Assembly: GCF_032854445.1 (NCBI RefSeq)
Contig: NC_088296.1
Coordinates: forward strand, 27,048,667-27,112,666
DNA from: Liolophura sinensis
Lineage: Eukaryota > Mollusca > Polyplacophora > Chitonida > Chitonidae
Reading direction: 5' to 3'
DNA: 64,000 nucleotides
The position numbers and the translations under genes are program-made. The notes beneath the pieces were generated by a model that saw only the letters and a program-made list of their open reading frames with translations, was not told the origin of the DNA and did no database searches. Of this stretch, positions 18,845 to 48,600 are shown in pieces; position 1 is the first letter of the stretch; each line of letters begins with the position of its first letter.

Positions 18845-21800
18845 CTGCAGAAGAGAGAAGGAAAACTGTCGATGATCGGGTTGTAATGTTAGATTTATAC
18901 AAGGTTTATAATCAGTCAGTGACAGGACACGGAAATGATACGGAAATACATTCTGAGAGGATACGGAAATGATACGGAAATACATTCTGAGAGGATACGG
19001 AAATGATACGGAAATACATTCTGACAGGATTCCTCTGGTCCTTGGTGGAAATAAGGGATGGACTCATGTAACTGAGTTGTCATACATGAAGCTGGCTGGA
19101 TACGGTATATTGAAGAATATCACACATCAGTTACTTGCCAGACTTCGTTGTCATATATGAAGTTGGCTGGATATAGTATATTGTAGAATATCACACATCA
19201 GTTACTTGCCAGACTTCGTTGTCATATATGAAGTTGGCTGGATACGGTATATTGTAGAATATCACACATCAGTTACTTGCCAGACTTCGTTGTCATATAT
19301 GAAGTTCGCTGGATATGGTATATTGTAGAATATCACAGATCAGTTACTTGCCAGACTTCGTTGTCATATATGAAGTTGGCTGGATACGGTATATTGTAGA
19401 ATATCACACATCAGTTACTTGCCAGACTTCGTTGTCATATATGAAGTTGGCTGGATATGGTATTTTGTGAGAACACCTGTGAGAACATGCTGGGATTAAC
19501 ACATTGCTAACTTGCAAAAGTGTTGAGGAATTATTTACAGTGGAAGTTTAAGGCATTGTAGGAAAATTATCTCCACAAAACTTCAGTCACGGACTTTACT
19601 CTTTGTATTACAAATATCTTGAGGGAAAAAGACTGATAAAAAGCACAGTCTTTCTTACTAACTGAGCTTCTGCACACTCACACTTACTTTTATAGGTTTC
19701 TAAATCAATGTTTACCATTTTACAACTGATAAATTGTGACTTTCTAGAGACTGGGTTGCTATGGTAATGCCCTCTGAGACAAATGCATGATCTTCCATTC
19801 CACAAAATCTATGAAAATATATGAATGTCTGCGTGACATACATTAACTGGTTATAAAAATGCACTTTCAGAAGCCATAGAGGTCTTAATAATATTTTTCA
19901 TGCCAACACTTTCTCCGATAATTAATTAATCAAACTTAACAAGAGAACTCTTAACTTAAAAGTGGCACTACAACATATACAAGAAGGATGAAGCCATCCG
20001 AATCAAACAACACATGTCACACAAAAACTGCTGAACTTTAGGTGAAATACACGTGTCACACAAAAACTGCTGAACTTTAGGTGAAATACATGTGTAACAC
20101 AAAAACTGCTGAACTTTAGGTGAAATACATGTGTCACACAAAAACTGCTGAACTTTAGGTGAAATACACGTGTCACACAAAAACTGCTGAACTTTAGGTG
20201 AAATACATGTGTAACACAAAAACTGCTGAACCTTAGGTGAAATACACGTGTCACACAAAAACTGCTGCACTTTTGGTGAAACACAAAATGTGTCACACAA
20301 AAACTGCTGAACTTTTGGTGAAATACAACACATGTCACACAAAAACTGCTGAACTTTAGGTGAAATACAAAATGTGTCACACAAAAACTGCTGCACTTTT
20401 GGTGAAACACAAAATGTGTCACAAAAACTGCTGCACTTTTGGTGAAATACAAAATGTGTCACACAAAAACTGCTGAACTTAAGGTGAAATACAAAATGTG
20501 TCACACAAAAACTGCTGAACTTTTGGTGAAATACAACACGTGTCACACAAAAACTGCTGCACTTTTGGTGAAACACAAAATGTGTCACACAAAAACTGCT
20601 GAACTTTAGGTGAAATACATAATGTGTAACACAAAAACTGCTGCACTTTTGGTGAAATACAAAATGTGTCACACAAAAACTGCTGAACTTTAGGTGAAAT
20701 ACAAAATGTGTCACACAAAAGCTGCTGAACCTTAGGTGAAATACAAAATGTGTCACACAAAAACTGCTGCACTTTTGGTGAAATACGAAATGTGTCACAC
20801 AGAAACTGCTGCACTTTTGGTGAAATACAAAATGTGTCACACAAAAACTGCTGGACCTAAGGTGAATACAAAAGGTGTCACACAAAAACTGCTGAACTTT
20901 AGGTGAAATACAAAATGTGTCACACAAAAACTGCTGAACTTTAGGTGAAATCGACCCAGGATTGACCCTGGATCTACCGTTCCCGCTCTACCAACTGTGC
21001 TATTGGGGCCGGTAAAATACAGAATGAGAAGTTCAATGTACATGTACTTACTAACATTTGTTAAGATAGATGTTTCAAAGAACAGTGAGTCAATTGAGGC
21101 AGCATATTCCTGCGCGAAGTTCTATGTACATGGACTTACCAATATTTGTTAAGGCAGATGTTTCAAAGAACAGTGAGTCATTTGAGGCAGCATATTCCTG
21201 TGTGAAGTTCTATGTACATGTACTTACCAATATTTGTTAATGCAGATGTTTCAAAGAACAGTGAGTCAATTGAGGCAGCATATTCCTGTGTGAAGTTCTA
21301 TGTACATGGACTTACCAATATTTGTTAAGATAGATGTTTCAAAGAACAGGGAGTCAATTGAGGCAGCATATTCCTGTGTGAAGTTCTATGTATATAAACT
21401 TACCAATATTTGTTAAGATAGATGTTTCAAAGAACAGGGAGTCAATTGAGGCAGCATATTCCTGTGTGAAGTTCTATGTACATGTACTTACCAATATTTG
21501 TTAAGGCAGATGTTTCAAAGAACAGTGAGTCAACGGAGGCAGCATATTCCTGTGTGAAGTTCTATGTACATGTACTTACCAATATTTGTTAAGATAGATG
21601 TTTCAAAGAACAGTGAGTCAACTGAGGCAGCATACTCCTGTGTGAAGTTCTATGTGCATGGACTTACCAATATTTGTTAAGGTAGATGTTTCAAAGAACA
21701 GTGAGTCAATTGAGGCAGCATATTCCTGTGTGAAGTTCTATGTACATGGACTTACCAATATTTGTTAAGGCAGATGTTTCAAAGAACAGTGAGTCAATTG

Positions 21801-24800
21801 AGGCAGCATATTCCTGTATGAAGTTCTATGTACATGTACTTACCAATATTTGTTAAGGCAGATGTTTCAAAGAACAGTGAGTCAACTGAGGCAGCATATT
21901 CCTGTGTGAAGTTCTATGTACATGTACTTATCAATATCTGTCAAGGCAGATGTTTCAAAGAACAGAGAGTCAACGGAGGCAGCATGCTTTTGTGTGAGGT
22001 TCTATGTACATGTACTTACCAATATTTGTCAAGGCAGATGTTTCAAAGAACAGAGAGTCAACGGAGGCAGCATACTCCTGTGTGAAGTTTTATGTACATG
22101 GACTTACCAATATTTGTTAAGATAGATGTTTCAAAGAACAGAGAGTCAATTGAGGCAGCATGCTCCTGCGTGAAGTTCTATGTACATGGACTTACCAATA
22201 TTTGTTAAGGCAGATGTTTCAAAGAATAGAGAGTCAACGGAGGCAGCATGCTCCTGCGTGAAGTTCTATGTACATGGACTTACCAATATTTGTTAAGGCA
22301 GATGTTTCAAAGAACAGAGAGTCAACTGAGGCAGCATACACCTGTGTGAAGTTCTATGTATATGTACTTACCAATATTTGTCAAGGCAGATGTTTCAAAG
22401 AACAGTGAGTCAACTGAGGCAGCATACTCCTGTGTGAAGTTCTATGTACATGTACTTACCAATATTTGTTAAGGCAGATGTTTCAAAGAACAGTGAGTCA
22501 ATTGAGGCAGCCTACTCCTGTGTGAAGTTCTATGTACATGGACTTACCAATATTTGTCAAGGCAGATGTTTCAAAGAACAGTGAGTCAACGGAGGCAGCA
22601 TACTCCTGCGCGAAGTTCTATGTACATGGACTTACCAATATTTGTCAAGGCAGATGTTTCAAAGAACAGTGAGTCAATTGAGGCAGCATACTCCTGTGTG
22701 AAGTTCTATGTACATAGACTTACCAATATTTGTCAAGGCAGATGTTTCAAAGAACAGTGAGTCAACTGAGGCGGCATACTCCTGTGTGAAGTTCTATGTA
22801 CATGGACTTACCAATATTTGTCAAGGCAGATGTTTCAAAGAACAGTGAGTCAACTGAGGCAGCATACTCCTGTGTGAGGTTCTATGTACATGTACTTACC
22901 AATATTTGTCAAGGCAGATGTTTCAAAGAACAGTGAGTCAACTGAGGCAGCATACTCCTGTGTGAGGTTCTATGTACATGTACTTACCAATATTTGTCAA
23001 GGCAGATGTTTCAAAGAACAGTGAGTCAACGGAGGCAGCATACACCTGTGTGAGGTTCTATGTACATGGACTCACCAATATTTGTTAAGGCAGATGTTTC
23101 AAAGAATAGGGAGTCAATTGAGGCAGCATACTCCTGTGTGAGGTTCTATGTACATGGACTTACCAATATTTGTTAAGGCAGATGTTTCAAAGAACAGGGA
23201 GTCAGTTGAGGCAGCATATTCCTGTGTGAAGTTCTATGTACATGTACTTACCAATATTTGTCAATGCAGATGTTTCAAAGAACAGGGAGTCAACTGAGGC
23301 AGCATACTCCTGTGTGAAGTTCTATGTACATGTACTTACCAATATTTGTCAAGGCAGATGTTTCAAAGAACAGTGAGTCAATTGAGGCAGCATATTCCTG
23401 AGCATCCTCTTTCTTAACTTGTCTCTCATTTTCCAAGTCACATTTGTTGCCAAGGAGACACATAACTATGGGAGTATCAACATTTTTCTTTAATTCTGAA
23501 AATATACCCCAAAAAAAGATTATAGAAAAAATAACAATGCAAGTATTAGGACTTCGATGCTACTGATCTGATAGTGGTAATGAAATACAGTTTATACGAG
23601 TGGCCTTTTAACAAATTATCGCGCTGTCATCGGCTGCTCTGGTTTTACTCTCTATGCCATAAGTCTTTTATTTTTATGACAAAAGGCCACTTTTCACTGG
23701 TTACACATGACCATTTTCCAACTATCACACTGTCATCGCTGCTCTGGTTTTTCTCTCTATACTATAAGTCTCTTAAATTTTTTGACAATAGGCCGTGTTT
23801 CACTGTTTACACATGACCATTTGCCAACCATCACACTGTTGTTGCTGCTCTTGTTTTACTCTCTATACTGTATGCCTGTCACACTGTTGTTGCTGCTCGT
23901 TTTACTCTCTGCACTGTACGTCTGTCACACTGTCGTCGCTGCTCGTTTTACTCTCTATGCTGTACGTCTATCACACTGTTGTCACTGCTCTTGTTTTACT
24001 CTCTATACTGTACGTCTGTCACACTGTCATTGCTGTTCTGGATTTACTCTCTATGCTGTACGTCTATCACACTGTTGTCATTGTTTTTCTGGATTTACTC
24101 TCTATACTGTACGTCTGTCACACTGTCATTGCTGTTCTGGATTTACTCTCCATGCTGTACATCTATCACACTGTTGTCGCTGCTCTTGTTTTACTCTCTA
24201 TACTGTATGTCTGTCACATTGTCATTGCTGTTCTGGATTTACTCTCTATGCTGTATGTCTGTCACACTGTCATTGCTGTTCTGGATTTACTCTCTATGCT
24301 GTATGTCTATCACACTGTCATCGCTTCTCTTCTTTTATTCTCTATGCCGTAAGCCTTCATAATATATGGTTTCTCATCATGTGTAGTATACATTCCTTTT
24401 TGATGAATAACAAGATGATATCCTGACAAGGTGATATCTTGTTATCTTAACTTAACTACAGAGATAGTACAGATACTATGTGATGAGGGTACCTGTTAGT
24501 GTTACACTGCCTTGTTTCCTTCAGGTTGATACTGCATTTAATAATGTTTCACTCAAACTTCACTTAGGCTTATAACATGTATACAGAGGCCCAGCCCTTG
24601 ATATCACAGAAAGAACTTAATCATAAAATATCATGAAATACAATCAAACTTACCACCAAAACTTTCAATATCATACACATTGTAAAAGGTGTCTGATGAT
24701 GTGATATCAAATACTACAGCCAAACTTATGACTAACTCAGTCCTTGATATCACAGAAGCTGTGGTGATGTGATATCAAACATTACAGCCCAACTTTCTGC

Positions 24801-27800
24801 TAAGTTTAAGACGGAAAGTGATGACATGATATCAGACATTACAGTTAAACTTACCACTAACCCAGCTTGATATCATAGGCGTCTGATGATGTGATATCCA
24901 ACATTACAGTCAAACTTACCACTAACCCAGTCCTTGATATCATAGAAGGTGTCTAATGATGTGATATCATATATTAACATTGCCGCATTTGCCTTTCTGT
25001 AGTACATCGGTGCCTGGAAGATAAAACAGGAACTATAACTGATGTCTGTATATCTTCACAAACGAATTCAGCTCATTCAAGTGCCTGTGTACTCAACTAA
25101 CAATTTTAATTGTCATTTACTGTACTGTTTGACCCCTTTAAGCAAAGATGGGTGATCAGATAGGCCAGGAGCAAGTGCTAACCCAAAATCTACACCTAGT
25201 TAAATGGCAACCAGTTATTACAGGGAACAGCTACTGAAAATGGCCTCTATTTCTGTATCTATCTACTGCAAACAGACATCAATATATGCATTTAAATGTC
25301 ATAAAATAAGTTTCCTGCAAAACAAACAAACTGAAATCATCACTTTCAATGATATCATTTAATTCACTAACAACTGAGAGAGAAAATGCGAACTGACTCT
25401 GCGCTCCTGATTATCAGTGACAGTTAATTAAACATAATTAAGGAAGTGCAGGTATAAATAATAGTTTGAACTCTATGTTCAATGTTACTGACTCTGCTGG
25501 GTTAAGTGCTGGTAGTTTATTCGTTTTAAAAAGGCACAGTACACACCGTAATACCATAAGCCATCCCATTCAGCAAGTTTCTACCTCCATCTTGTCTGAT
25601 TCATGCTGTAAATCTTCGACCTTTTCGAGCTCTAAAGTCATTTTTCCACTCCCATGTATGTATACAGTTAAACACAAAGAACTTACTTAAAACAGCTCTG
25701 GCATATTTGGATTTCAAAATGTGGTCAACCTGATTGGGATATACATAACTGCTCCCTTCCTGCCATGCTTACTGTCCTTACCACACCTCTGAGCTTCACA
25801 ATACAGACTAAACTTCCAGGATTTGTAACACCATAACTGCTGGGTGTTCAGTTTCTGTTGTCTTTAAAACAACTCTGGATTTCAAAATGTGGTCAACCTG
25901 ACTGGATATAACACTCTATAACTGCTCCCTTTCCTGCCATGCCTACTGTCCCCACCACACCTCTGAGCTTCACAATACAGGCTAAACTTCCAGGATTTGT
26001 AACACCATAACTGCTGGGTGTTCAATTTCTGTTGTCTTTAAAACAGCTCTGGATTTCAAAATGTGGTCAACCTGACTGGATATAACACTCTATAACTGCT
26101 CCCTTCCTGCCATGCCTACTGTCCCCACCACACCTCTGAGCTTCACAATACAGACTAAACTTCCAGGATTTGTAACACCATAACTGCTGGGTGTTCAATT
26201 TCTGTTGTCTTTAAACAGCTCTGGATTTCAAAATGTGGTCAACCTGACTGGATATAACACTCTATAACTGCTCCTTCCTGCCATGCCTACTGTCCCCACC
26301 ACACCTCTGAGCTTCACAATACAGACTAAACTTCCAGCATTTGTAACACAATAACTGCTGGGTGTTCAATTTCTGTTGTCTTTAAAACAGCTCTGGATTC
26401 AAAATGTGGTCAACCTGATTGGATATACATAACTGCTCCCTTCCTGCCATGCCTACTGTCCTTACCACACCTCTGAGCTTCACAATACAGACCAAACTTC
26501 CAGGATTTGTAACACCATAACTGCTGGGTGTTCAATTTCTGTTGTCTTTAAAACAGCTCTGGATTTCAAAATGTGGTCAACCTGACTGGATATAACACTC
26601 TATAACTGCTCCCTTCCTGCCAAGCCTACTGTCCTTACCACACCTCTGAGCTTCACAATACAGACTAAACTTCCAGGATTTGTAACACCATAACTGCNNN
26701 NNNNNNNNNNNNNNNNNNNNNNNNNNNNNNNNNNNNNNNNNNNNNNNNNNNNNNNNNNNNNNNNNNNNNNNNNNNNNNNNNNNNNNNNNNNNNNNNNNNN
26801 NNNNNNNNNNNNNNNNNNNNNNNNNNNNNNNNNNNNNNNNNNNNNNNNNNNNNNNNNNNNNNNNNNNNNNNNNNNNNNNNNNNNNNNNNNNNNNNNNTCC
26901 CTACCACACCTCTGAGCTTCACAATACAGACTAAACTTCCAGGATTTGTAACACCATAACTGCTGGGTGTTCAATTTCTGTTGTCTTTAAAACAGCTCTG
27001 GATTTCAAAATGTGGTCAACCTGACTGGATATAACACTCTATAACTGCTCCCTTCCTGCCATGCCTACTGTCCTTACCACACCTCTGAGCTTCACAATAC
27101 AGACCAAACTTCCAGGATTTGTAACACCATAACTGCTGGGTGTTCAATTTCTGTTGTCCTTAAAACAGCTCTGGATTTACAAATGTGGTCAACCTGATTG
27201 GATATAAAACTCTATAACTGCTCCCTTCCTGTCATGCCTACCGTCCCCACCACACCTCTGAGCTTCACAATACAGACTAAACTTCCAGGATTTGTAACAC
27301 CAAAACTGCTAGGTGTTCAATTTCTGTTGTCTTTAAAACAGCTCTGGATTTCAAAATGTGGTCAACCTGATTGGATATAAAACTCTATAACTGCTCCCTT
27401 CCTGCCATGCCTACTGTCCCTACCACACCTCTGAGCTTCACAATACAGACTAAACTTCCAGGATTTGTAACACCATAACTGCTAGGTGTTCAATTTCTGT
27501 TGTCTTTAAAACAGCTCTGGATTTCAAAATGTGGTCAACCTGATTGGATATAAAACTCTATAACTGCTCCCTTCCTGCCATGCCTACCGTCCCCACCACA
27601 CCTCTGAGCTTCACAATACAGACTAAACTTCCAGGATTTGTAACACCAAAACTGCTAGGTGTTCAATTTCTGTTGTCTTTAAAACAGCTCTGGATTTCAA
27701 AATGTGGTCAACCTGATTGGATATAAAACTCTATAACTGCTCCCTTCCTGCCATGCCTACTGTCCTTACCACACCTCTGAGCTTCACAATACAGACTAAA

Positions 27801-30800
27801 CTTCCAGGATTTGTAACACCATAACTGCTGGGTGTTCAATTTCTGTTGTCTTTAAAACAGCTCTTAACTTCCAGGATTTGTAACACTATTCCTGTAACTG
27901 CTGTTCACTGGCTGTTGTCTTCTAAATGAGGTCAACCTGCTGACCTTTGCTGTAATTGTTCACTGCCTATTCTCCTCACCATAGCTCTGAACCTTTCCTG
28001 TCCGGCTGTATCCCACACCTGAAGTTTGACTCGATAACTTCCTAATGTCCTGAAAATAAAACAAAACATTCATTCTTACAAGTGAGTAGGAAAACAACCC
28101 ACAAAAACATACATGTAAATGTGTCAGGTAACATCAGAGTACCATAGTGACCATACATGTAAACGTGTCAGGTAACATCAGAGTACCACAGTGAACATAC
28201 ATGTAAACGTGTCAGGTAACATCAGGGTACCATAGTGACCATACATGTAAACGTGTCAGGTAACATCAGAGTACCATGGTGACCATACATGTAAATGTGT
28301 CAGGTAACATCAGAGTACCATGGTGACCATACATGTAAATGTGTCAGGTAACATCAGAGTACCATGGTGACCATACATGTAAATGTGTCAGGTAACATCA
28401 GAGTACCATAGTGACCATACATGTAAACGTGTCAGGTAACATCAGAGTACCACAGTTACCACAAATAAATATGTGAGAAAGTCAGAAATTCAATTTTAAA
28501 GGAGCTATACAAGCAGTTCAATTCAAACTCACTTTTCACCATGCTAAAGGGTATGGAGAGGTGTTATTTTTGAGATGTATGGCCATAAATATCGTGTTTT
28601 GTTCAATGCATATGTTATATTTTGTACTGTCAACATGGGGATCAGTTGAGACAAAAACGAGGTAAAATGTCTGCTTTTTTGTCCTGGAGCAAAGTTCAGA
28701 CACCAACTACATGAATAATAATACCTCAAAGTGGTCAGACTTTCTTCTGCAAATTGTCATATACATCTATAATATTAATCGGGCAACAAGTATCTCCTAA
28801 ATCTATCACATGACCTATGGCAGCTCGCTGAAAATATAAAATATAGCATATGCACTGAACAAAACACAATATTTATGGGCATATATCTCAGAAAGTATTG
28901 AAGATATTTATTTTTTGATTCCATATTCTAAAAGCCAGGGTAGAAACTACCCTGTAGACAGATTTTCAGACTTCTATGTTATGGTCATCCAAAAATGCCT
29001 CCAGAACAGATATCCTATTCGTGACTGTTGAAAATGAACTTTACAGGGTGTTTTTAGATGGTCATATCACAAAAACCACTTGGAATTTGGGGCAGTAACT
29101 TGGGAAACCTTCCTCATATATGTCAAGGAATTTTTAAGAATTTTTTCAGCAAAAATCCAAGAGGGTCAAACAATAGTTGGCTGAAGTGACTCGGAAAGAC
29201 CCCAATGCCTTCAGAGCAAACAATATATAGGAAACACGTACTTCAGAGTCAATCAAAAAATACATTGATCAACATTCATAAAACAAGACAAAGCCTAATG
29301 TAACTCCAAAAACTGAAGCTTCATACACTCATAGGCTGTATTTTGTCTCTTTATAGATGCACATTTTCTTTAGCAGACCTACTGAAAACAACCCTTGCTT
29401 GAGCAGATGCCAAAACCTTACGTTTCTCGTTTGTTTTTTATTGAACTTTTCTCTGGCATATAATATAGTTCAGTCACCAGAGATCATGAGCTTCCTCCAA
29501 ACCTTAGCTTAGATATAATGCCATACTTAGCTGATTTTGTGTTACTTGTCAGTCAGTTGGGTGTTTTTTTTTTTTATTTTTTATTACACAACATATTACC
29601 CGCATAGCAGATTACTACACTGGTTTTACAAAAAAAAGCAATTAGGAGCATGATGCGTCTGTACGGAAAATTCATAATATAAAAAAATAAGAGCAAGTTT
29701 AGCCCATTGGCGAATACGTCTGTATGCTTGGGAGAGACAAGAAGTACATAAGCAAATAAGCATGGCCTGAACAAAGTCTGTGTATACTCACATTTTGTAG
29801 GTGAAGAAGGAAGCCCCAATGGTAGGGCTCACATGTTTGCTGAACATATTCCCCACATAGCGGATTACTACGCTGGTTTTACCCACACCTACAACAGCAA
29901 GACAGCAAGTTTTACACCCTTCATCAATGGTAGGGCTCACATGTTTGCTAAACATATTACCCACATAGCAGATCACTACGCTGGTTTTACCCACACCTAC
30001 AACAGCAAGACAACAAGTTTTACACCCTTCATCAATGGTAGGGCTCACATGTTTGCTAAACATATTACCCACATAGAGGATCACTACGCTGGTTTTACCC
30101 ACACCTACAACAGCAAGACAGCAAGTTTTACACCCTTCATCAATGGTAGGGCTCACATGTTTGCTAAACACATTACCCACATAGCAGATCACTACGCTGG
30201 TTTTACCCACACCTACAACAGCAAGACAGCAAGTTTTACACCCTTCATCAATGGTAGGGCTCACATGTTTGCTGAACATATTACCCACATAGCAGATCAC
30301 TACGCTTGTTTTACCCACACCTACAACAGCAAGACAGCAAGTTTTACACCCTTCATCAATGGTAGGGCTCACATGTTTGCTAAACACATTACCCACATAG
30401 CAGATCACTACGCTGGTTTTACCCACACCTACAACAGCAAGACAGCAAGTTTTACACCCTTCATCAATGGTAGGGCTCACATGTTTGCTAAACATATTAC
30501 CCACATAGCGGATCACTACGCTTGTTTTACCCACACCTACAACAGCAAGACAGCAAGTTTTACACCCTTCATCAATGGTAGGGCTCACATGTTTGCTGAA
30601 CATATTACCCACATAGCAGATCACTACGCTGGTTTTACCCACACCTACAACAGCAAGACAACAAGTTTTACACCCTTCATCAATGGTAGGGCTGACATGT
30701 TTGCTAAACATATTACCCACATAGCAGATCACTACGCTGGTTTTACCCACACCTACAACAGCAAGACAACAAGTTTTACACCCTTCATCAATGGTAGGGC

Positions 30801-33800
30801 TCACATGTTTGCTGAACATATTACCCACATAGCAGATCACTACGCTGGTTTTACCCACACCTACAACAGCAAGGCAGCAAGTTTTACACCCTTCATCAAT
30901 GGTAGGGCTGACATGTTTGCTAAACATATTACCCACATAGCAGATCACTACGCTGGTTTTACCCACACCTACAACAGCAAGACAACAAGTTTTACACCCT
31001 TCATCAATGGTAGGGCTCACATGTTTGCTAAACATATTACCCACATAGCAGATCACTACGCTGGTTTTACCCACACCTACAACAGCAAGGCAGCAAGTTT
31101 TACACCCTTCATCAATGGTAGGGCTCACATGTTTGCTAAACATATTACCCACATAGCAGATCACTACACTGGTTTTACCCACACCTACAACAGCAAGACA
31201 ACAAGTTTTACACCCTTCATCAATGGTAGGGCTCACATGTTTGCTAAACATATTACCCACATCGCAGATCACTACGCTGGTTTTACCCACACCTACAACA
31301 GCAAGGCAGCAAGTTTTACACCCTTCATCAATGGTAGGGCTGACATGTTTGCTGAACATATTACCCACATAGCAGATCACTACGCTGGTTTTACCCACAC
31401 CTACAACAGCAAGACAGCAAGTTTTACACCCTTCATCAATGGTAGGGCTCACATGTTTGCTAAACATATTACCCACATAGCAGATCACTACGCTTGTTTT
31501 ACCCACACCTACAACAGCAAGACAGCAAGTTTTACACCCTTCATCAATGGTAGGGCTCACATGTTTGCTAAACATATTACCCACATAGCGGATCACTACG
31601 CTTGTTTTACCCACACCTACAACAGCAAGGCAGCAAGTTTTACACCCTTCATCAATGGTAGGGCTCACATGTTTGCTGAACATATTACCCACATAGCGGA
31701 TCACTACGCTTGTTTTACCCACACCTACAACAGCAAGACAGCAAGTTTTACACCCTTCATCAATGGTAGGGCTCACATGTTTGCTAAACACATTACCCAC
31801 ATAGCGGATCACTACGCTGGTTTTACCCACACCTACAACAGCAAGACAGCAAGTTTTACACCCTTCATCAATGGTAGGGCTCACATGTTTGCTAAACATA
31901 TTACCCACATAGCGGATCACTACGCTGGTTTTACCCACACCTACAACAGCAAGGCAGCAAGTTTTACACCCTTCATCAATGGTAGGGCTGACATGTTTGC
32001 TAAACATATTACCCACATAGCAGATCACTACGCTGGTTTTACCCACACCTACAACAGCAAGACAGCAAGTTTTACACCCTTCATCAATGGTAGGGCTCAC
32101 ATGTTTGCTAAACACATTACCCACATAGCGGATCACTACGCTTGTTTTACCCACACCTACAACAGCAAGACAGCAAGTTTTACACCCTTCATCAATGGTA
32201 GTGCTCACATGTTTGCTAAACATATTACCCACATAGCGGATCACTACGCTTGTTTTACCCACACCTACAACAGCAAGGCAGCAAGTTTTACACCCTTCAT
32301 CAATGGTAGGGCTGACATGTTTGCTGAACATATTACCCACATAGCGGATCACTACGCTTGTTTTACCCACACCTACAACAGCAAGACAGCAAGTTTTACA
32401 CCCTTCATCAATGGTAGGGCTCACATGTTTGCTAAACACATTACCCACATAGCGGATCACTACGCTTGTTTTACCCACACCTACAACAGCAAGACAGCAA
32501 GTTTTACACCCTTCATCAATGGTAGTGCTCACATGTTTGCTAAACATATTACCCACATAGCGGATCACTACGCTTGTTTTACCCACACCTACAACAGCAA
32601 GGCAGCAAGTTTTACACCCTTCATCAATGGTAGGGCTGACATGTTTGCTGAACATATTACCCACATAGCGGATCACTACGCTTGTTTTACCCACACCTAC
32701 AACAGCAAGACAGCAAGTTTTACACCCTTCATCAATGGTAGGGCTCACATGTTTGCTAAACACATTACCCACATAGCGGATCACTACGCTTGTTTTACCC
32801 ACACCTACAACAGCAAGACAACAAGTTTTACACCCTTCATCAATGGTAGGGCTGACATGTTTGCTGAACACATTACCCACATAGCGGATCACTACGCTTG
32901 TTTTACCCACACCTACAACAGCAAGGCAGCAAGTTTTACACCCTTCATCAATGGTAGGGCTCACATGTTTGCTAAACATATTACCCACATAGCGGATTAC
33001 TACGCTGGTTTTACCCACACCTACAACAGCAAGACAACAAGTTTTACACCCTTCATCAATGGTAGGGCTGACATGTTTGCTAAACATATCACCCACATAG
33101 CGGATCACTACGCTGGTTTTACCCACACCTACAACAGCAAGACAGCAAGTTTTACACCCTTCATCAATGGTAGGGCTCACATGTTTGCTGAACATATTAC
33201 CCACATAGCAGATCACTACGCTGGTTTTACCCACACCTACAACAGCAAGACAGCAAGTTTTACACCCTTCATCAATGGTAGGGCTCACATGTTTGCTGAA
33301 CATATTACCCACATAGCAGATCACTACGCTGGTTTTACCCACACCTACAACAGCAAGACAGCAAGTTTTACACCCTTCATCAATGGTAGGGCTCACATGT
33401 TTGCTGAACATATTACCCACATAGAGGATCACTACGCTTGTTTTACCCACACCTACAACAGCAAGACAACAAGTTTTACACCCTTCATCAATGGTAGGGC
33501 TCACATGTTTGCTGAACATATTACCCACATAGAGGATCACTACGCTTGTTTTACCCACACCTACAACAGCAAGACAACAAGTTTTACACCCTTCATCAAT
33601 GGTAGGGCTCACATGTTTGCTAAACATATTACCCACATAGCGGATCACTACGCTTGTTTTACCCACACCTACAACAGTAAGACAACAAGTTTTACACCCT
33701 TCATCAATGGTAGGGCTGACATGTTTGCTGAACATATTACCCACATAGCAGATCACTACGCTGGTTTTACCCACACCTACAACAGCAAGACAGCAAGTTT

Positions 33801-36800
33801 TACACCCTTCATCAATGGTAGGGCTCACATGTTTGCTGAACATATTACCCACATAGCAGATCACTACGCTGGTTTTACCCACACCTACAACAGCAAGACA
33901 GCAAGTTTTACACCCTTCATCAATGGTAGGGCTGACATGTTTGCTAAACATATTACCCACATAGCAGATCACTACGCTGGTTTTACCCACACCTACAACA
34001 GCAAGACAGCAAGTTTTACACCCTTCATCAATGGTAGGGCTGACATGTTTGTTAAACATATTACCCACATAGCGGATCACTACGCTTGTTTTACCCACAC
34101 CTACAACAGCAAGACAGCAAGTTTTACACCCTTCATCAATGGTAGGGCTGACATGTTTGCTGAACATATTACCCACATAGAGGATCACTACGCTTGTTTT
34201 ACCCACACCTACAACAGCAAGACAACAAGTTTTACACCCTTCATCAATGGTAGGGCTCACATGTTTGCTAAACATATTACCCACATAGAGGATCACTATG
34301 CTGGTTTTACCCACACCTACAACAGCAAGACAGCAAGTTTTACACCCTTCATCAATGGTAGGGCTCACATGTTTGCTAAACACATTACCCACATAGCAGA
34401 TCACTACGCTGGTTTTACCCACACCTACAACAGCAAGACAGCAAGTTTTACACCCTTCATCAATGGTAGGGCTCACATGTTTGCTAAACATATTACCCAC
34501 ATAGCAGATCACTCACTGGTTTTACCCACACCTACAACAGCAAGACAGCAAGTTTTACACCCTTCATCAATGGTAGGGCTCACATGTTTGCTAAACATAT
34601 TACCCACATAGCAGATCACTACGCTGGTTTTACCCACACCTACAACAGCAAGGCAGCAAGTTTTACACCCTTCATCAATGGTAGGGCTGACATGTTTGCT
34701 GAACATATTACCCACATAGCAGATCACTACGCTGGTTTTACCCACACCTACAACAGCAAGACAACAAGTTTTACACCCTTCATCAATGGTAGGGCTCACA
34801 TGTTTGCTAAACATATTACCCACATAGCAGATCACTACGCTGGTTTTACCCACACCTACAACAGCAAGACAGCAAGTTTTACACCCTTCATCAATGGTAG
34901 GGCTCACATGTTTGCTGAACATATTACCCACATAGCAGATCACTACGCTGGTTTTACCCACACCTACAACAGCAAGACAGCAAGTTTTACACCCTTCATC
35001 AATGGTAGGGCTGACATGTTTGCTAAACATATTACCCACATAGCAGATCACTACGCTGGTTTTACCCACACCTACAACAGCAAGACAGCAAGTTTTACAC
35101 CCTTCATCAATGGTAGGGCTGACATGTTTGTTAAACATATTACCCTCATAGCGGATCACTACGCTTGTTTTACCCACACCTACAACAGCAAGACAGCAAG
35201 TTTTACACCCTTCATCAATGGTAGGGCTGACATGTTTGCTGAACATATTACCCACATAGAGGATCACTACGCTTGTTTTACCCACACCTACAACAGCAAG
35301 ACAACAAGTTTTACACCCTTCATCAATGGTAGGGCTCACATGTTTGCTAAACATATTACCCACATAGAGGATCACTATGCTGGTTTTACCCACACCTACA
35401 ACAGCAAGACAGCAAGTTTTACACCCTTCATCAATGGTAGGGCTCACATGTTTGCTAAAAACGTTACCCACATAGCAGATCACTACGCTGGTTTTACCCA
35501 CACCTACAACAGCAAGACAGCAAGTTTTACACCCTTCATCAATGGTAGGGCTCACATGTTTGCTAAACATATTACCCACATAGCAGATCACTACGCTGGT
35601 TTTACCCACACCTACAACAGCAAGACAACAAGTTTTACACCCTTCATCAATGGTAGAGCTCACATGTTTGCTAAACACATTACCCACATAGCAGATCACT
35701 ACGCTGGTTTTACCCACACCTACAACAGCAAGACAGCAAGTTTTACACCCTTCATCAATGGTAGGGCTGACATGTTTGCTAAACATATTACCCACATAGC
35801 AGATCACTACGCTGGTTTTTACCCACACCTACAACAGCAAGATAGCAAGTTTTACACCCTTCATCAATGGTAGGGCTGACATGTTTGCTGAACACATTAC
35901 CCACATAGCAGATCACTACGCTGGTTTTACCCACACCTACAACAGCAAGACAGCAAGTTTTACACCCTTCATCAATGGTAGGGCTCACATGTTTGCTAAA
36001 CATATTACCCACATAGCAGATCACTACGCTGGTTTTACCCACACCTACAACAGCAAGACAGCAAGTTTTACACCCTTCATCAACGGTAGGGCTCACATGT
36101 TTGCTAAACATATAACCCACATAGCAGATCACTACGCTGGTTTTACTCACATATTTACTCATAACTTGTGACTTCATGCACAGAACAGTTCTGACTGTTT
36201 ATCACTGAACCATACTGTCTGAAAATCTCCTTGCATTTGCACAGAGAAATATATTTATAGCTCATGTGTTTGAACCAATGCAAAAAGATAAACAAGAAAA
36301 CAGCTGACCGGGTAGTATGAAAATCTTAACCTGATGGTGGAACTACTGTTCGCTGTTAATATCTGGAATACAAATCTTACATTTTTCAGATATCTATAAC
36401 AGTACATCACCTGAAATTTAACACTCTTTGCGCCGTTCAAAGTAAGGCAATATTGGTCTTTGATAAGCACCTGGCTGGTAACCAGTGTACCGATTTTTAA
36501 TCTGCAAATTTTTCTGAACTCTTCAAAACATGACCTTTTACTAGATGTTATCACAAAGGAAATCCGACATTTTTTTTTTCTTCAAAATGGCTGAGAGCCC
36601 CAAAAGGGCAGGTATTTTGGCAAAACTGTCTCAACACAAGCAAATAAAGAATAAAAGATATCCCTTGCAGAATAAATATAAAAATACTGTTCGAATTGCC
36701 ATCACATGAATACCACACCAAATTTCACAGGCCTATGCTCAAATATGAAACATGCTGATGGAAAGAATCAACATTGTTTATGCCAAATTTTGTCAAAGAG

Positions 36801-37477
36801 GCGCCCTCAACGTTGTATGCTTTGAATGTATGTGAGTGTTTAAAATTGATACTACATCACCAACCTTCAAACTTGTTTTTAAAGAAAACTACTGAACCAA
36901 TAACAGTTCTATCAATTGATTTAGAAATTCCCAGATATACCGCCTAACATTTTGCGCCCAATATGGGAAATCTGAAAATCGACTGAAACCCCTAGTAATA
37001 TGTTCTGTGGTCATCACTCATGACAGAACTTTAAGATATCTTATAAAGCACAGAAAATTGTGTAAATTATAAATAATCAACCATGAACAGTTACCTTAGG
37101 TACGCCTTATTCTGAAAAGACAGTTCACTGTGTAAAACTAAATGACATGAAGAAATGAACCGGTTGACTCTATACCATTCAACCAGCTGTTTTTTGTCAG
37201 CTGGCTGTTGGGTCACCACCATTCACCAAAGCGGTGAGATCATATGTTACTTCATTCATGTTTAGGCCAACTCTTGTCTTCTTAACCAAAACGGTTCAAA
37301 CAAACTGTTCTAATATGTTTGATGTCGACCGTTTCTCAGTGGCGTTAATGACATTACTGATCTGAGACTAGAATTACTGGTCTGTTTACAAACGTCACAC
37401 ATCCACTAACCTTGGGAGCCTAGAACAACTACCTTCGCCTCTAGGGCCTTCATGTCGTCGTCACCACTGGCGTTCAT
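18627..37477 (-). CDS. complete Rab small GTPase, Rab5/21/22/31-like, six coding exons, 233 residues
   Basis: The exons on the minus strand are 37477-37411, 29888-29792, 28049-27980, 25013-24920, 23495-23340 and 18844-18627. All introns are GT-AG and every split codon closes correctly, giving 233 residues with no internal stop. Motifs: P-loop GSQGVGKT (20-27), switch I PTIG (44-47), WDTAGQ with the catalytic Gln (67-72), NKCD (126-129), ETSA (154-157) and C-terminal CSC (231-233), a CXC double geranylgeranylation site. The segment APMYYRKANAAMLIYDIT after switch II resembles the Rab5/22/31 group, which acts in endosomal traffic. The tail is Ser-rich (SSSSSSTNGCSC). The gene is head to head with HINT1. 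Four of its five introns contain arrays copied from its own exon edges. The exact orthologue is uncertain. Confidence 0.9.
18925..19030. repeat. 34-bp tandem repeat, about 3 copies
   Basis: The unit is 'gatacggaaatacattctga' plus 'gaggatacggaaat'. It lies in intron 5 of the minus-strand Rab gene. Confidence 0.85.
19075..19465. repeat. 71-bp tandem repeat, about 5.5 copies
   Basis: The unit holds 'gttgtcatatatgaagttgg', 'ctggatacggtatattg' and 'atcacacatcagttacttgc'. Intron 5 of the minus-strand Rab gene. Confidence 0.9.
19480..20000. other. unique intron sequence
   Basis: Part of intron 5 of the minus-strand Rab gene. No exon or repeat recognised. Confidence 0.5.
20012..20955. repeat. ~38-44-bp tandem array, about 23 copies
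   Basis: The core is 'cacacaaaaactgctgaact' followed by 'ttaggtgaaata' and either 'cacgtgt', 'catgtgt' or 'caaaatgtgt'. Two unit lengths (short in the left third, longer on the right) define subfamilies. Two minus-strand frames stay open for long stretches. The array abuts an inverted SINE head, and the last unit runs straight into it ('ttaggtgaaatcgacccagg'). Confidence 0.92.
20950..21016 (-). mobile_element. SINE head fragment, tRNA-like
   Basis: The reverse complement reads 'ccggccccaatagcacagtt', then 'ggtagagcgggaacggtaga' and 'tccagggtcaatcctgggtc'. This matches the A- and B-box-like head of the SINE at 3200. It lies exactly between the 42-bp and the 88-bp arrays. Confidence 0.65.
21040..23339 (-). 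repeat. 88-bp array of exon-5-derived units, about 26 copies
   Basis: The donor-proximal 'cttacc' falls at 21135, 21223, 21311 and so on to 23336, every 88 bp. On the minus strand each unit is 'acttcacacag|GAATATGCTG', then the codons for AASIDSLFFETSALTNI, then 'ATTG|GTAAGT'. The exon-like part (58 nt) copies the 3' end of true exon 5 with its donor. The CAG that codes Gln in the true exon sits as an AG acceptor in the units. Units vary at a few sites (caattg/caactg/caacgg). The true exon is the copy at the highest coordinate. Confidence 0.95.
23340..23495 (-). CDS. minus-strand Rab exon 5: NKCD and ETSA motifs
   Basis: The acceptor is 'atattttcag|AATTAAAG' and the donor 'AATATTG|GTAAGT'. 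It completes Glu110 and encodes LKKNVDTPIVMCLLGNKCDL, later EYAASIDSLFFETSALTNI, so both the G4 and G5 loops are in this exon. 156 nt; phase 1 in and 1 out. Its 3' end seeded the 88-bp array. Confidence 0.92.
23590..24352. repeat. tandem array of the CTGCTCTGGTTTTACTCTCT family
   Basis: The left part (23625-23830) has ~100-bp units with 'ggttacacatgaccatt' and 'ctatcacactgtcatcgctg'. From 23830 shorter ~50-60-bp units of 'tactctctatactgtacgtc' and 'tgtcacactgtcattgctgt' follow. Three plus frames are open but of very low complexity. Intron 4 of the minus-strand Rab gene. Confidence 0.88.
24595..24919 (-). repeat. degenerate ~85-bp copies of the exon 4 end and donor
   Basis: Blocks such as 'cagtccttgatatcacagaa', 'gtctgatgatgtgatatca' and 'aaacttaccactaacccag' recur four to five times next to true exon 4 (24920-25013). 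They copy its 3' end (codons around DTFYDIKDW) plus the donor region 'GTAAGTTTG'. Divergence is higher than in the 88-bp and 108-bp arrays, so this is an older or less homogenised array. Confidence 0.75.
24920..25013 (-). CDS. minus-strand Rab exon 4: APMYYRK to DIKDWVS
   Basis: The acceptor is 'cttccag|GCACCG' and the donor 'GTTAGTG|GTAAGT'. It encodes 31 residues plus one base, APMYYRKANAAMLIYDIT then SLDTFYDIKDWVS. The split codon G|AA joins exon 5 correctly. Confidence 0.92.
25014..25690. other. unique part of intron 3
   Basis: AT-rich intron sequence. A 74-codon plus frame at 25466-25690 has no support as a gene. Confidence 0.5.
25695..27865 (-). repeat. ~166-175-bp array related to the exon 3 donor region, about 12 copies, contains the gap
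   Basis: Each unit holds 'aacttccaggatttgtaaca', 'ttcaatttctgttgtcttta', 'ctctggatttcaaaatgtgg' and 'taccacacctctgagcttca'. The single-copy sequence 27866-27995, running into true exon 3, has the same order of blocks. There 'cctcaccatagctctgaacc' is the counterpart of 'ccttaccacacctctgagct'. So on the minus strand each unit carries a degraded exon 3 end with a donor-like GTAAGG, GTAGGG or GTGGGG. Confidence 0.85.
26698..26897. other. assembly gap, 200 N
   Basis: Exactly 200 N inside the ~173-bp array, which suggests a placeholder for a gap of unknown size. The true copy number of the array is therefore not known. Confidence 0.99.
27980..28049 (-). CDS. minus-strand Rab exon 3: WDTAGQ switch II
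   Basis: The acceptor is 'ttttattttcag|GACATT' and the donor 'AGAGCTATG|GTGAGG'. The first G completes Met55 (AT|G). It encodes TLGSYRVKLQVWDTAGQERF, then RAM. The catalytic Gln of WDTAGQ is intact. 70 nt. Confidence 0.93.
28085..28455. repeat. 44-bp tandem repeat, about 8 copies
   Basis: The unit is 'caggtaacatcagagtacca' plus 'tagtgaccatacatgtaaac'. Variants are cac/cat/tgg at the 'accatagtg' site. It lies about 35 bp from the acceptor of exon 3 in intron 2, and the homogenised unit contains no exon sequence. Confidence 0.9.
28456..29787. other. unique part of intron 2
   Basis: AT-rich; no recognised repeat or exon. A degenerate extra copy of part of exon 2 ('acccgcatagcagattacta', 'ctggttttac') is visible at about 29590-29625, outside the main array and beyond the exon 2 donor. 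Confidence 0.5.
29792..29888 (-). CDS. minus-strand Rab exon 2: P-loop end and switch I
   Basis: The acceptor is 'cttgctgttgtag|GTGTGG' and the donor 'TACAAAAT|GTGAGT'. With the last base of exon 1 it gives GVGKTSVVIRYVGNMFSKHV, then SPTIGASFFTYK. The lysine and threonine of GKT bind the nucleotide phosphates and Mg; PTIG is switch I. I choose this copy as the true exon because only it continues past PTI into GASFFTYK and a donor. The first 71 nt plus 37 nt of intron form the unit of the adjacent 108-bp array. Confidence 0.9.
29821..36150 (-). repeat. 108-bp array of exon 2 plus its 3' splice site, about 58 copies
   Basis: Each minus-strand unit is 71 nt of exon 2 (VGKTSVVIxYVGNMFSKHVS up to PTI) and 37 nt of intron ending 'tgtcttgctgttgtag'. 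The unit is 36 codons and stop-free in that frame, so an open frame of 1574 codons runs from 34512 to 29788, with further open blocks 35828-34509 and 36177-35788. The plus strand is also open (1592 codons). Single-base changes at about 34513 (loss) and 35816 (gain) are the only breaks seen. The variable residue x is C, R or L (VVICYV, VVIRYV, VVILYV). A 324-bp (three-unit) period and a ~1.08-kb (ten-unit) duplication are visible. Confidence 0.97.
36178..37410. other. 5' part of intron 1
   Basis: AT-rich, unique. No exon recognised. It ends at the exon 1 donor 'CCCAAG|GTTAGT' on the minus strand. Confidence 0.55.
37411..37477 (-). CDS. minus-strand Rab exon 1: start codon and first half of the P-loop
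   Basis: It encodes MNASGDDDMKALEAKVVVLG then SQ and the first base of Gly23, with donor 'CTCCCAAG|GTTAGT'. Joining to exon 2 gives GSQGVGKT, a canonical P-loop. This is what shows that the array reading 'LAVVGVGKT' is intron plus exon rather than a natural protein. The start is the first ATG in this frame, in context 'acaaATGAAC'; a second in-frame ATG follows at residue 9. Confidence 0.88.
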
Positions 37478-42650: not shown

Positions 42651-45600
42651 GACTCTTGAAGCTGTTCAACACCTGAAAAATAAATAGGAAAATCATGAGA
42701 AAAATCTTAACACTACAACTGGATATTATTTATAAAATTCTTTTATTCCTGCAAACTTACGAAGTTTCTTGCAGCACTATATATCTTTGTGGGGAAGAGC
42801 TGAATCTTTACATGGCATTTGTGTTAACTGATCACAACTTACTCACCTGTACTTAAAACAGCCGTTGTGTCAATGGATCACTCTGAAGCAGAGGTCACAG
42901 GAGGCGTACCTGATGGCTGAGCTATAGGAAATAAGCAAAATACAAAAATACTCAAAAAGACAAAAGTTACTGTAACAAAATTCTGTAATGAGAGTTTAAA
43001 AAAAGCGGGAACAAAAGTCCAGAGACGTATCATGTGCAAATCCTTAAAGCTATGTATTACACACAAGGATACAAACTTTGTTGATTGCAGCTCTGTCCCC
43101 AAAAAGTTATTTCACGATAATGGGAGTATTGCATTTGAACTGTCAGGAATTCAGAACATAAGGTTTGAAGACAATATCCCAGTTGTGTATTTTCTTTTTA
43201 ATCAGACTTTAACCTAAAACTTAAACGTCCGGCATATTTCAACAGCCACATCTCTCCTTCCAAAAAACTGATGAAAAACTAACACAAAATGCAGCCTACC
43301 CATAGTAATCTCCCCTGTCTGCACTTGTTCCTCAGATGCCACAGCATCCAGCATTGGAACTGTGACATCCTTATGCCTTTCTTACCCATATACTTTTTTG
43401 GTGGTACAAAATTTGGACAAAATGTTTTCCCCGGCACCTCTGACGACAACTTGTTGACTGCTTGCTGCAGTGGACCATCATAGGAGATGGGATCAGCTCC
43501 TCCTTTACTGGTTAAGGCATCCCGTCTTCTGTCCTCATTCCACCTGTACACACCATCAAGGAGGTAAACCTGAAAGTTTACATCATTGGCAACAGTACCT
43601 GAAAAACAAAGTGTTATAAAACTGTTAAAATTTATCTTGGGCTGATTCGGTGATGAACATATTACTGACAGTAACAGCCGAAACTGACATAAGGAAGGTA
43701 AAGTTACCAGACTCACAGATACTGGTGGTTTAAGGTGTTCAGTGGTTGGTGTTTCATGACATGCTTTAGGAACTCAAAACACATCTATTGACTACAGTGT
43801 TGTATCATGAAGAAATGTCAGAGAGAAAATACTAACAAACTACCCGTATGAATACTGTAACTTTACATACCAGGGATAAATCTAGCCATATGTAAATGGA
43901 AACTCTCCAGACTGGTTGATCCTCTGGAGCATCTGAAAGTGGGGAGTGTTACACCTCCCTTAACCAATGTACCCGTGCAGGTGTACAACTGGATAGCTTC
44001 AGGGTCCTGGATACAACCAACATGTCGACTCTGTTGTTGCCAAATGTCTCTCATTTTCTCAGTGTTGATGAGGGGCACAGTAAGAATTTCCAAGCCCTTG
44101 TAACGATCCATGGAACTGATCAGTTTCGAGATAAGACGTTAAGTCTCATCGGCGCCACGTGTCCTTCTCCTGCAGTGGCGAGCTAGCACTACATCAGAAT
44201 CGCTGGGATTTGGAATATGACGCTTGGTCACTTCCAAACGCTTTGCCTTTTTCAACAACCAGATATTTTCCTCCTTCCAGCAAAAGATGCAATGACTCAG
44301 ACGCCCCGTAACAATTTTTAGGGTATAAATAATGACCTAAGTTCCAGTGAAACCTGTCTGTCTGATACATTCCCATACACCCAGGATGGAAATCAGCCAT
44401 ACAGTGTTCTTCCCAGGCAGTCCAGTCCAATGAAACCATTAAATTTATTTGATTTATTTGAATTACTCAAGAATATTTCACTTATATGATGGCGGCCACC
44501 ATTATTGTGAGAGGGACCCATGCAGAGTCCGGGGGAAACCCACAACCATCCACAGGTTGCTGGCGGACCTTCTCACATACAGCTGGAGAGGAAGTCAGCA
44601 TGAGCTGAAAACCCTTAAAGTTATTGTACACACTACTAGAACTCTTTGACATAAAGCAAACAAGACTTTACCTAACTTGCAGGAATGGCCAGTCATCAAA
44701 GTACTTGGTAATAGCAGAGCTGCCACAACAGCCTCTGTCTACATAGAGAAGTCCAGGAGGGTCAACACTGGCACGACGATAGCGATCAATGACACCATCA
44801 ATCATATCCCTCAAACCCTGTCCATCCCCAGTAGTGAGAACTGTCATGATGACTTGCCCATGCTCGTTGCCAACGTTTGTGGCCCACATGGCAGTTTTTG
44901 CACTTTGACCTGGAATCAATATTGATAATTGTTATGTACATCAAATCTTTAGTTTATCAACTATCAAAGTTATCAGCATTCTGCCTCTTAATGACTTAAA
45001 ACTTGCTGCAGTTACTCTGTGAAAATGGCAAATTTCATTTAAGAAATTCATTTAAATTAAGGAATATGAATAAACAGGCTCCTGATAAATGTGTGCATTT
45101 AACATAAGTCAATAATCCATAAGAATGACTAAAATCAGATAAATACCAGTCAATTTTTTAGTGTTTTTTTTTTGTTGAATCTAATTTCAACACCTCTCCA
45201 AACTGGGACGTTATGCTAGCCTTGATGTGATCTAGCCTTTGTATCACATCAAGCTGATAAATTTTCATCAACCAGCGGTGCCCTGGCATCCTAATTATTT
45301 GTGGAGGCTCTTCAAACTGGGGTGTTACCACCAGACCACTCTGTGATGCTCTCTGGAATCGTGGACACTCAGTCAGATAATGATGCACCGCCTTGAGATA
45401 GCGATCTCCATGTTCCTCCTCTAACTGCCTACGCAACAAGCTACTGCTGTTACCCAGGCCTCGATGCCGCAGTAGCTCCACCACCTTGCCATCACAGGCA
45501 AACTCGGCAGTCAGGATGCATGGAAAATGTATCTGATGGTCAATACCAAGCTGGCTGATTATGTTATGTGCCCAAGAGATAACCTAGAAAGAAAAATTTC

Positions 45601-48600
45601 ATCTTAAGTTTTGACTTCCAGCAAGAGGAAAAATCATAGTAAAAACCCATGGAATTGAACTCACAGCCACTTTGCTGAGAGTTTCACTGAGCCTTATTGT
45701 TGTGTACAGCAAGCAGACTGAGAACAATTAAATTTATCCAAGCCCATTCATGAACTTATTGTGTTCACAATGTTGGACTGAGGAGTGTGTTCTATCTCCT
45801 ATGCTTGAATTTAGACTCACAAAACTGGGTATGAAACTGTTTCTCCTTTTGTTTAACATACAGTTGAACTCACAATATAAAACATAGTTTACCTTAGCAC
45901 CACAGGATGAGCACTGTAGATACTCTGCAGCAATGATGTAAAAGCTGTCAACATCAAGCACCATCCTTGTTTTCTGGTGGAAGCCTGCCCTGGTCAGCAC
46001 TCCACCACATTTTCCAAACTCGCTGCTATGTGGACAAAGAAGCTTTACTCCCCAAAAATTAACTGCTATCCACAAAAACAATTGATGACTGAAGTATCTG
46101 TCAACTTTGTTTCGGGCTGAAGATGCCATACTTGGAGGGGGTGGTGTATGCCACAGTTTGATCAAGATATCAGAACGGAACTCAATTTTGTTGGTCCAGG
46201 GGTTCCTCCTGAAAAATGTTTTGGATATCCACTGCTGGTCCTCTTTTGGCAGCGTAGATTTCCAGCCTTGATACAAGAGGAGTTCATCTGATGTAAACAA
46301 TAAGTCAGAAATTGATAAGTAAGAATTAAGATAATTTCTTGAGAACTTCACATTTATGGCAAAAATCAAATGGTATTTTTCAATCCTTAAATCACTCCAC
46401 AGATCACTACTTTGACGCAAATAACAGACGTTAAAGCTTATGAAGTATAATTTACAGCTGAACAAAATTATACAATTTAGGCAACGAAATACATCCTTGA
46501 TTTACAGGCTTCTAAAATTAATTATCAAACTAAAAGGAAGTCAAAAAATTATACTAAATTTATAAGAAAATTTAGTTCAATTGGTTTTCTTAAAATATTT
46601 TATAAACCACAGGTTACCACACACCCATCTACATGTATATATAATGACAGCCCCCTAATACCATATACACACAATGCATTGCTCCATTCATAAGCACTAT
46701 GATATGCTAAGTTCTGACAAAACCACAAGACATATTGTTCACATACATATTGTGCAACGACATTTAAGTTTCATTAGAATATATGAACATAAAGCTATAA
46801 GGAAATGGATGGGGTGAGTGAGTGCTTGGGGTTTAATGTCGTACTTAACAACTGAAATGGATGGAGAGCAGACAAGAAGCTTTAGCGAGAGACAAAATAA
46901 ATGAAGAGAAGTCCCGCAGGTAAAAAGCAAAGGTGGACATGTGGAGCCTCAAGCTAAGATAAAATATTAGTACTTACCTCAAGTCAGCCTACTAATATCA
47001 TAAAACAATTCCATGTAAACATTAAACATCTACCAAAATACAAATTGAACAAGTACACTAACTCACCTAAAATCTGGGGAAGAAAAATTTGCTTCTTTTT
47101 GTCACATTTTAAAAGTTCGATGGCATTTTAAGAAATCATTTTTGCATTTATTAGACACAATATTAAAAACACAAATACATATATCAGTCACCCAATGTAT
47201 AATTTTTGGCAGCTGTACTGACTTCTAAAGGTGATATTTAGGATATTCTATTTACTTCATTTAAGTGTACATCAAATTCATAAAATTAAAACATATCTTG
47301 TTCCTATAAAAATGATTTCTGGAGGATTTAAATGTAAAAATATTCGTCCTATACAAACTGAATATTTTCCACAAAAATTACCTGGAACTTCTGAAGATAC
47401 TTCAGTGGCGTCCGACATTTCAGTCGATTCAATATGTTCAAGAACCGAGACCAGATCTCGATCTTCCTGTGCTGAAGTACCTGTGCAAGAAAGAAGCAAA
47501 CATATCATGGAATCGTTCTTCTGCACCAGTTATACAATCCTGTACTATATGTCACGTTCACTGGACTGCTTTCATTCGTTACCACAAAGATGTGTATTTT
47601 AACATCCAAATACACCAGTGGAATTTATATCACACCCACACATATTATTATCTCTAGTCCACATACAAGCCAGGTAATGTGCCTGTGAGTGTTTACATAA
47701 ATACTTACCCAGTTTGATTTCTTGAGCAATCAGCGGTGACTGAGAAGATGGAATGTCTGTGAACAAAGAACATATGTTAACTGAATTGATAAAAAAATAA
47801 ATACAACAAAAATTAATATTTCACACATCTTATTTTCACAAGAAACTATGATTATGTCAATGAGATACCTTATTATAATTGTGAGTTATCTCCCCTGATC
47901 CTAAATCTTCTCATCACTGTGTGGTATTAATCCAGTTATAATTTTTAGTTATCATCTTTGTTATATTTCGATAAACAATATTAACTGATTTGCACTGATT
48001 TATCAGCAGTACTCACCTGGTTTCACCTTAGGTGGGGCAAAAAGTGTCTTGGCCTTCTGCACAAGGGCCCCAGTTGATAGCTGTCGCTCTGTTGTGACAA
48101 GGGCCTTCAACTGAGAGGTGCTTGACTTGCATGTCTCCTCGTTTTTCCTTTGAATAATGGTGCGCCCCTCCTCAAACATTTGCATGTAGCGCTATAAAAT
48201 ACAATTTTCATCTGATTGTCACTAAATGTCACTGAAACAGGTTCAAGTTCAGAAAGATTTGTACAATTACAATAGAGTTCAATTAAATTTGTCTGTACAC
48301 TGTCTGCTTGTGTTGGCATGTCTGATTTCGTGAATTTCACTGTAATAGTTATTTAACTAAGAATCATCCAATCTATGGTTCACTACCAGTCTTGTGCAAG
48401 TCAGCTGGCATCCACTGCACATCCTGTATACATTTTAGTGGGTTTGATTGATTGATTGATTGATTGACTGACTGATTTATTGAGCCTTAACATCCTACTT
48501 AACAGTGTCAGTAAACCATAAAATGTACATGGTGTCACCTTGTTGTGTCTTTGCTGAACTCTAGACAGGTCTTGTTTCCCTTCATCCTTGATGATCTGTC

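Follow-up and report, generated by a model that had tools for sequence, protein, structure and literature searches.

An intron-exon boundary of a Rab5-group gene repeated as a 58-acceptor minisatellite, and further exon-edge arrays, in the chiton Liolophura sinensis

We analysed a stretch of 64,000 nucleotides from the chiton Liolophura sinensis (contig NC_088296.1, positions 27,048,667 to 27,112,666; the whole stretch is called the window below), in which the boundary between intron 1 and exon 2 of a Rab gene is repeated in a long tandem array with a 108-bp unit. The source assembly (GCA_032854445.1) has 632 contigs, and the window lies on scaffold_10 (28,395,274 bases), 1.3 Mb from the scaffold end. 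The authors of the assembly later changed the species name from Liolophura japonica to L. sinensis in a published correction. On the minus strand we read six coding exons of the Rab gene, from 37477 down to 18627, joining them by eye from splice consensus and homology; together they encode a protein of 233 residues. This protein has a full Ras domain (PF00071, E=5e-58), and the Walker A, DTAGQE, NKxD and ETSA motifs as well as a C-terminal CSC are present. Since its best solved relatives are Rab21, Rab31 and Rab22A, we call the host gene a Rab5-group GTPase; judged from its sequence, it is a small GTPase of this group (Rab21/22/31-like). Intron 1 splits the Walker A motif GSQGVGKT: GSQ and one base of a glycine codon lie in exon 1, and GVGKTS opens exon 2. 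The exons and the array, in window positions, are the following.

37411 to 37477, minus strand: coding exon 1 (MNASGDDDMKALEAKVVVLGSQ plus one base), read by eye, with donor GTTAGT (8/9 consensus matches)
29817 to 36151, minus strand: array of 108 bp in 58.7 copies, each with 71 nt from exon 2 and 37 nt from intron 1, the acceptor included (Tandem Repeats Finder and acceptor count)
29792 to 29888, minus strand: true exon 2 (GVGKTSVVIRYVGNMFSKHVSPTIGASFFTYK), the final array copy, 97 nt, with donor GTGAGT (8/9)
27980 to 28049, minus strand: exon 3 (TLGSYRVKLQVWDTAGQERFRAM)
24920 to 25013, minus strand: exon 4 (APMYYRKANAAMLIYDITSLDTFYDIKDWVS)
23340 to 23495, minus strand: exon 5 (ELKKNVDTPIVMCLLGNKCDLENERQVKKEDAQEYAASIDSLFFETSALTNI)
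18627 to 18844, minus strand: last coding exon 6 (VEEAFLEVAKRL...SCSC, stop)

Tandem Repeats Finder (TRF), applied to the 64-kb window, placed the array at 29817-36151 with a period of 108 and 96% matches. In minus-strand orientation a unit comprises 71 exonic nt and then 37 intronic nt, the last six of which are TTGTAG. We counted 58 acceptors on this strand, of the form TTGTAG/GTGTGGG; the AG was kept at 58/58, and the spacing was 108 in 55 of the 57 steps (one step of 107, one of 109). The final acceptor, at 29888, is that of true exon 2 (29888-29792). Used as a DNA query against the 609-Mb genome, the unit gave 59 matches among those listed, every one at the Rab locus. A preliminary description of this DNA had reported about 58 tandem copies of part of a Rab exon with its acceptor, a minus-strand unit of 71 nt of exon 2 and 37 nt of upstream intron, and about 42 copies beside the true exon without a frame break. 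Our analysis bears out all of this, the reading frame being open from the acceptor at 34424 to that at 29888, which comprises 43 acceptors including the true one, that is, 42 possible in-frame extensions.

Among the 55 full-length units of the array, 35 are distinct and 20 repeat another unit, and adjacent copies differ on average at 3.38 sites compared with an overall mean of 3.67, which is only a slight difference. Compared with the unit consensus, true exon 2 has 4 differences in 71 sites, and its G at exon position 38 (sense strand, window 29851) occurs in 0/55 full-length array copies. At its upstream end the array finishes in a broken exon copy without an acceptor, and the first duplication junction is therefore lost. 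The tandem units span an exon-intron boundary, with the real exon at one end and the splice signal kept in many copies. The Rab array thus belongs to a known kind, the mirage, and is extreme in size.

We surveyed the genome for arrays of this build using Pfam Ras and kinesin searches, which covered 97 stretches with 174 exon-sized matches; arrays were called by TRF, and mirages were accepted by eye. The Ras part took 82 of 150 matches listed (exon-sized matches in listing order and their neighbours in the same stretch), and the kinesin part took 92 of 132 matches listed, three matches with several stops having been dropped before the count. With a threshold of at least 10 bp of overlap between exon and array, mirages were found in 8/174 surveyed exons (2/82 Ras, 6/92 kinesin). 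Both Ras exons that reached the threshold, L009 and L032, were accepted; eight kinesin exons reached it, and six were accepted (L068, L069, L075, L084, L085 and L100). L080 was rejected as its match ran into the intron, and L086 as it was a microsatellite. L064, L008 and L048, which only abut an array or overlap one by under 10 bp, were left out of the mirage count. Splice dinucleotides were intact in 5/6 copies found at L032, 5/5 at L009, 18/21 at L068, 9/11 at L069, 9/9 at L075, 12/13 at L085, 14/14 at L100 and 2/2 at L084, which with its two copies is a weak case. Of the kinesin arrays, L068 has 18 intact acceptor copies in a 27-bp unit and L100 has 14 intact donor copies in a 40-bp unit. 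Across 12 arrays of the genome, nine lay on the donor side and three on the acceptor side, a difference that was not significant (P=0.15).

The position of arrays along the scaffolds was uneven. Arrays covered 28.8% of bases less than 2 Mb from a scaffold end and 0.8% of bases more than 20 Mb away (95 loci; Spearman -0.48, P=7e-7). Mirages were present at 7/59 exons less than 6 Mb from a scaffold end and at 1/113 exons farther away (Fisher P=0.0025, two exons on C14 being excluded from this comparison by distance; since exons that share a gene are non-independent, the P values of the survey are optimistic). Inside the surveyed exon matches we saw 12 array ends (the eight accepted mirages plus L008, L064, L080 and L099), and 9.4 were expected from the density of array ends outside exons, or 9.7 when all bases were used. 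This result suggests no clear attraction of array ends to exons and no clear avoidance of exons either. On the simplest interpretation, arrays are born for the most part close to chromosome ends and now and then lie across the edge of an exon.

We infer that the Rab array grew by repeated duplication: a segment across the junction of intron 1 and exon 2 of the Rab5-group gene would have been duplicated in tandem again and again to give a minisatellite, of which every copy except the last lies in intron 1. Because the 58 acceptors are nearly identical, the true one cannot be told apart by the strength of its sequence, and downstream context alone differs. A real donor (8/9 consensus matches) lies within 97 nt downstream for the last copy only. 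Since no other copy runs on into a normal exon (97 nt) that ends at a good donor, the most likely course is that exon definition picks the acceptor of the last copy and that the remaining 57 leave with the intron. The best donor-like site inside the unit scores 7/9; it is lost in 17/55 copies and also occurs in the true exon. Exon 2 is flanked by introns of 7,522 nt (intron 1) and 1,742 nt (intron 2), and between large introns the splice sites nearest across the exon are reported to be preferred (PMC9225289). In our judgement, then, this very long mirage is likely to be a tandem-duplication minisatellite near a scaffold end in an array-dense region, with the last acceptor used and the rest spliced out.

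Several observations weigh against this account. By the same count, the donor-like site of the unit (7/9) equals the real donors of exons 3-5. Competing 3′ splice sites are reported to favour the upstream one overall, a preference that is reduced between long introns but not shown to be reversed there (PMC9225289); low-level use of upstream acceptors is therefore quite possible. In duplicated human genes, repeats located at exon-intron boundaries are reported to alter splicing (PMC2812944). The seven commonest variants among the array units lean synonymous (5/7), a weak hint of coding constraint for which the frequency threshold was picked afterwards. Finally, the assembly was built from high-fidelity (HiFi) reads at 14x with a mean length of 8,347 bp (PMC11068029), from which, under assumed length spreads, we estimate that three to four reads span the array; the exact copy number is therefore not secure.

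The array at exon 2 is not the only one of its kind in the window. We found three further exon-edge arrays, which the preliminary description had overlooked, at the donors of Rab exons 4 and 5 and in a Rab8-like gene, as well as a stray copy of exon 2.

24694 to 24976, minus strand: old donor array of exon 4, four copies of about 65 bp (TRF), GT kept in 3/4 splice-site copies
21028 to 23400, minus strand: exon-5 donor array, 88 bp x 27 (TRF), GT kept in 26/27 splice-site copies
5566 to 5655, plus strand: exon of the Rab8-like gene (best match of the joined fragment, Rab8A)
5640 to 6273, plus strand: donor array of the Rab8-like exon, 67 bp x 9.6 (TRF), GT kept in 6/8 splice-site copies found
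29590 to 29629, minus strand: degenerate exon-2 copy of 40 nt within intron 2 (90% identical by blastn over those 40 nt, E=1.3e-10)

Boundary-spanning arrays thus lie on 4/10 exons placed in the window, a rate that is biased because the window was picked for one such array. Tandem arrays of all kinds cover 34% of the window's bases. As possible derivatives of exons we also considered the 173-bp arrays at 25708-27864 and the 44-bp array at 28108-28461; these were rejected, as blastn with the ten exons gave no match there. A gap of 200 N at 26698-26897 splits the 173-bp tandem array in Rab intron 3. A stretch at about 20950-21010 on the minus strand, flanked by a 42-bp array and the exon-5 array, is by eye transfer RNA-like and resembles a short interspersed element. 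Farther along the window, a segment of about 2.92 kb is repeated in tandem at 53757-59915, with copy two nearly identical and copy three partly diverged, and two neighbouring open stretches on the minus strand at 45161-46501 match the two halves of DUF6729 (PF20499).

The open frame beside true exon 2 raises the question of whether the array carries meaning at the protein level. Appreciable use of upstream acceptors would lengthen the Rab protein by n x 36 residues in some isoforms, or would reduce expression through unproductive transcripts. The intact state of all 58 acceptors and the in-frame position of 42 upstream ones are in keeping with this idea, as are the upstream preference among 3′ sites and the alternative splicing of human boundary repeats cited above. 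The preliminary description had proposed that, with an upstream acceptor in use, each in-frame copy would add a P-loop motif (GVGKTS). We found, however, a complete GxxxxGK[ST] in 0 of the 43 GVGK motifs of the open frame: the first glycine of the real motif is supplied by exon 1, and the GVGK copies therefore have no complete Walker A. If an upstream acceptor were used, the isoform would have its complete P-loop on the first copy, and the copy that leads into the remainder of the G domain would be left without one. Read in antisense, on the plus strand, the array is equally open (1525/1525 codons), and several other arrays in the window with a period divisible by three are also open in a frame. 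Of 12 boundary arrays in the genome, 3 have a unit length divisible by three, which is the chance rate, and the read-through of the exon-5 array, with its 88-bp unit, runs into stops. Variants in the 55 full-length units comprised 8 synonymous, 13 non-synonymous and 0 stop changes (expected about 5, 15 and 0.5; P=0.13), so that with 8/21 synonymous all types are near expectation.

The read-through of the array necessarily scores as a series of Ras N-termini (PF00071, E=1.7e-34), and AlphaFold2 modelled it as a beta-solenoid with a mean predicted local distance difference test (pLDDT) score of 76.4, a confidence that the antisense control failed to reproduce (pLDDT 56.9). Perfect repeats are, however, reported to yield false beta-solenoids in AlphaFold2 (PMC11795689), and because of this we place little weight on the model and do not use it as evidence. 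Selection for a reading frame is unsupported by the unit lengths, by the other open arrays and by the variant types, and the frame-neutral property of the 108-bp array looks accidental. Nor does the proposal of a cryptic, frame-neutral series of alternative acceptors find backing, given also that lancelet mirages are reported to leave splicing undisturbed. Taken together, the protein-level meaning proposed for the array is unlikely, and we doubt that upstream acceptors see appreciable use.

Two other explanations concern the origin of the array. The copy number might be mostly an artefact of assembly, with few real copies at the locus. The small number of reads estimated to span the array and the gap that breaks the neighbouring 173-bp array are compatible with this, but 35 distinct units among 55 are unlike the product of a simple duplication of one read, and many more arrays of the same build exist in the genome; we regard such an artefact as very unlikely. 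Alternatively, exon edges might be preferred sites of array birth, for example through DNA damage linked to splicing or transcription. The excess of arrays on window exons over surveyed exons (4/10 vs 8/174, P=0.002) would fit, but it comes from a window that was chosen for its array and is array-rich, and the array ends within surveyed exon matches show no clear excess over expectation. Targeting of exon edges is, to our mind, highly improbable. We prefer the reading of a minisatellite grown by tandem duplication near a scaffold end, with the last acceptor in use.

With its 58 acceptors of almost the same sequence in one intron and 26 donors still intact in another, the Rab gene is a natural experiment in the spliceosome's choice among equal sites. 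Our survey suggests that exon-edge arrays are frequent near scaffold ends of the chiton genome. Intron gain from boundary repeats has been proposed for lancelet globins (PMC3087553), and with arrays this frequent near scaffold ends the model would be testable at scale in a mollusc. A bolder picture would treat chiton chromosome ends as a nursery of splice-site redundancy, in which about one exon in ten is arrayed and the spliceosome usually ignores the arrays, some of which (such as the in-frame Rab array) would provide low-level, length-variable alternative exons and raw material for new introns; we consider this picture improbable. In practical terms, arrayed exons are places where annotated gene models and the mapping of short reads may not be reliable. 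The abundance of arrays near scaffold ends and the choice of acceptor in RNA are most worth following.

The rise of array density toward scaffold ends in the chiton is comparable to the subtelomeric minisatellites of vertebrates, from which it differs in that some chiton arrays run into exon edges with their splice sites. Closer relatives in build are found in two groups. Internal tandem repeats of human segmental duplications are, like the chiton array, minisatellites at exon-intron boundaries, but they are described as having units of about 30 bp repeated four times on average, in duplicated primate genes and with splicing changes (PMC2812944). Among the open-licence papers listed, judged by title and abstract, we found no mollusc mirage. 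The nearest likeness is with lancelets, where Adh3 and the globins are reported to carry minisatellite-like, boundary-spanning repeats on both donor and acceptor sides that vary in length and leave regular splicing undisturbed (PMC3087553), with further cases in PGBD5 and troponin C (PMC3902484). The lancelet mirages described (Adh3, BflGb6, BflGb9, troponin C and PGBD5) resemble the chiton arrays in their boundary-spanning tandem units and often kept AG or GT, and that of BflGb6 lies, like the array of Rab exon 2, on the acceptor side. In size the two differ widely: 58 copies stand in the one assembled chiton haplotype, whereas two BflGb6 haplotypes are reported with three and six units. Unlike the lancelet cases, moreover, the chiton has several mirages in one gene.

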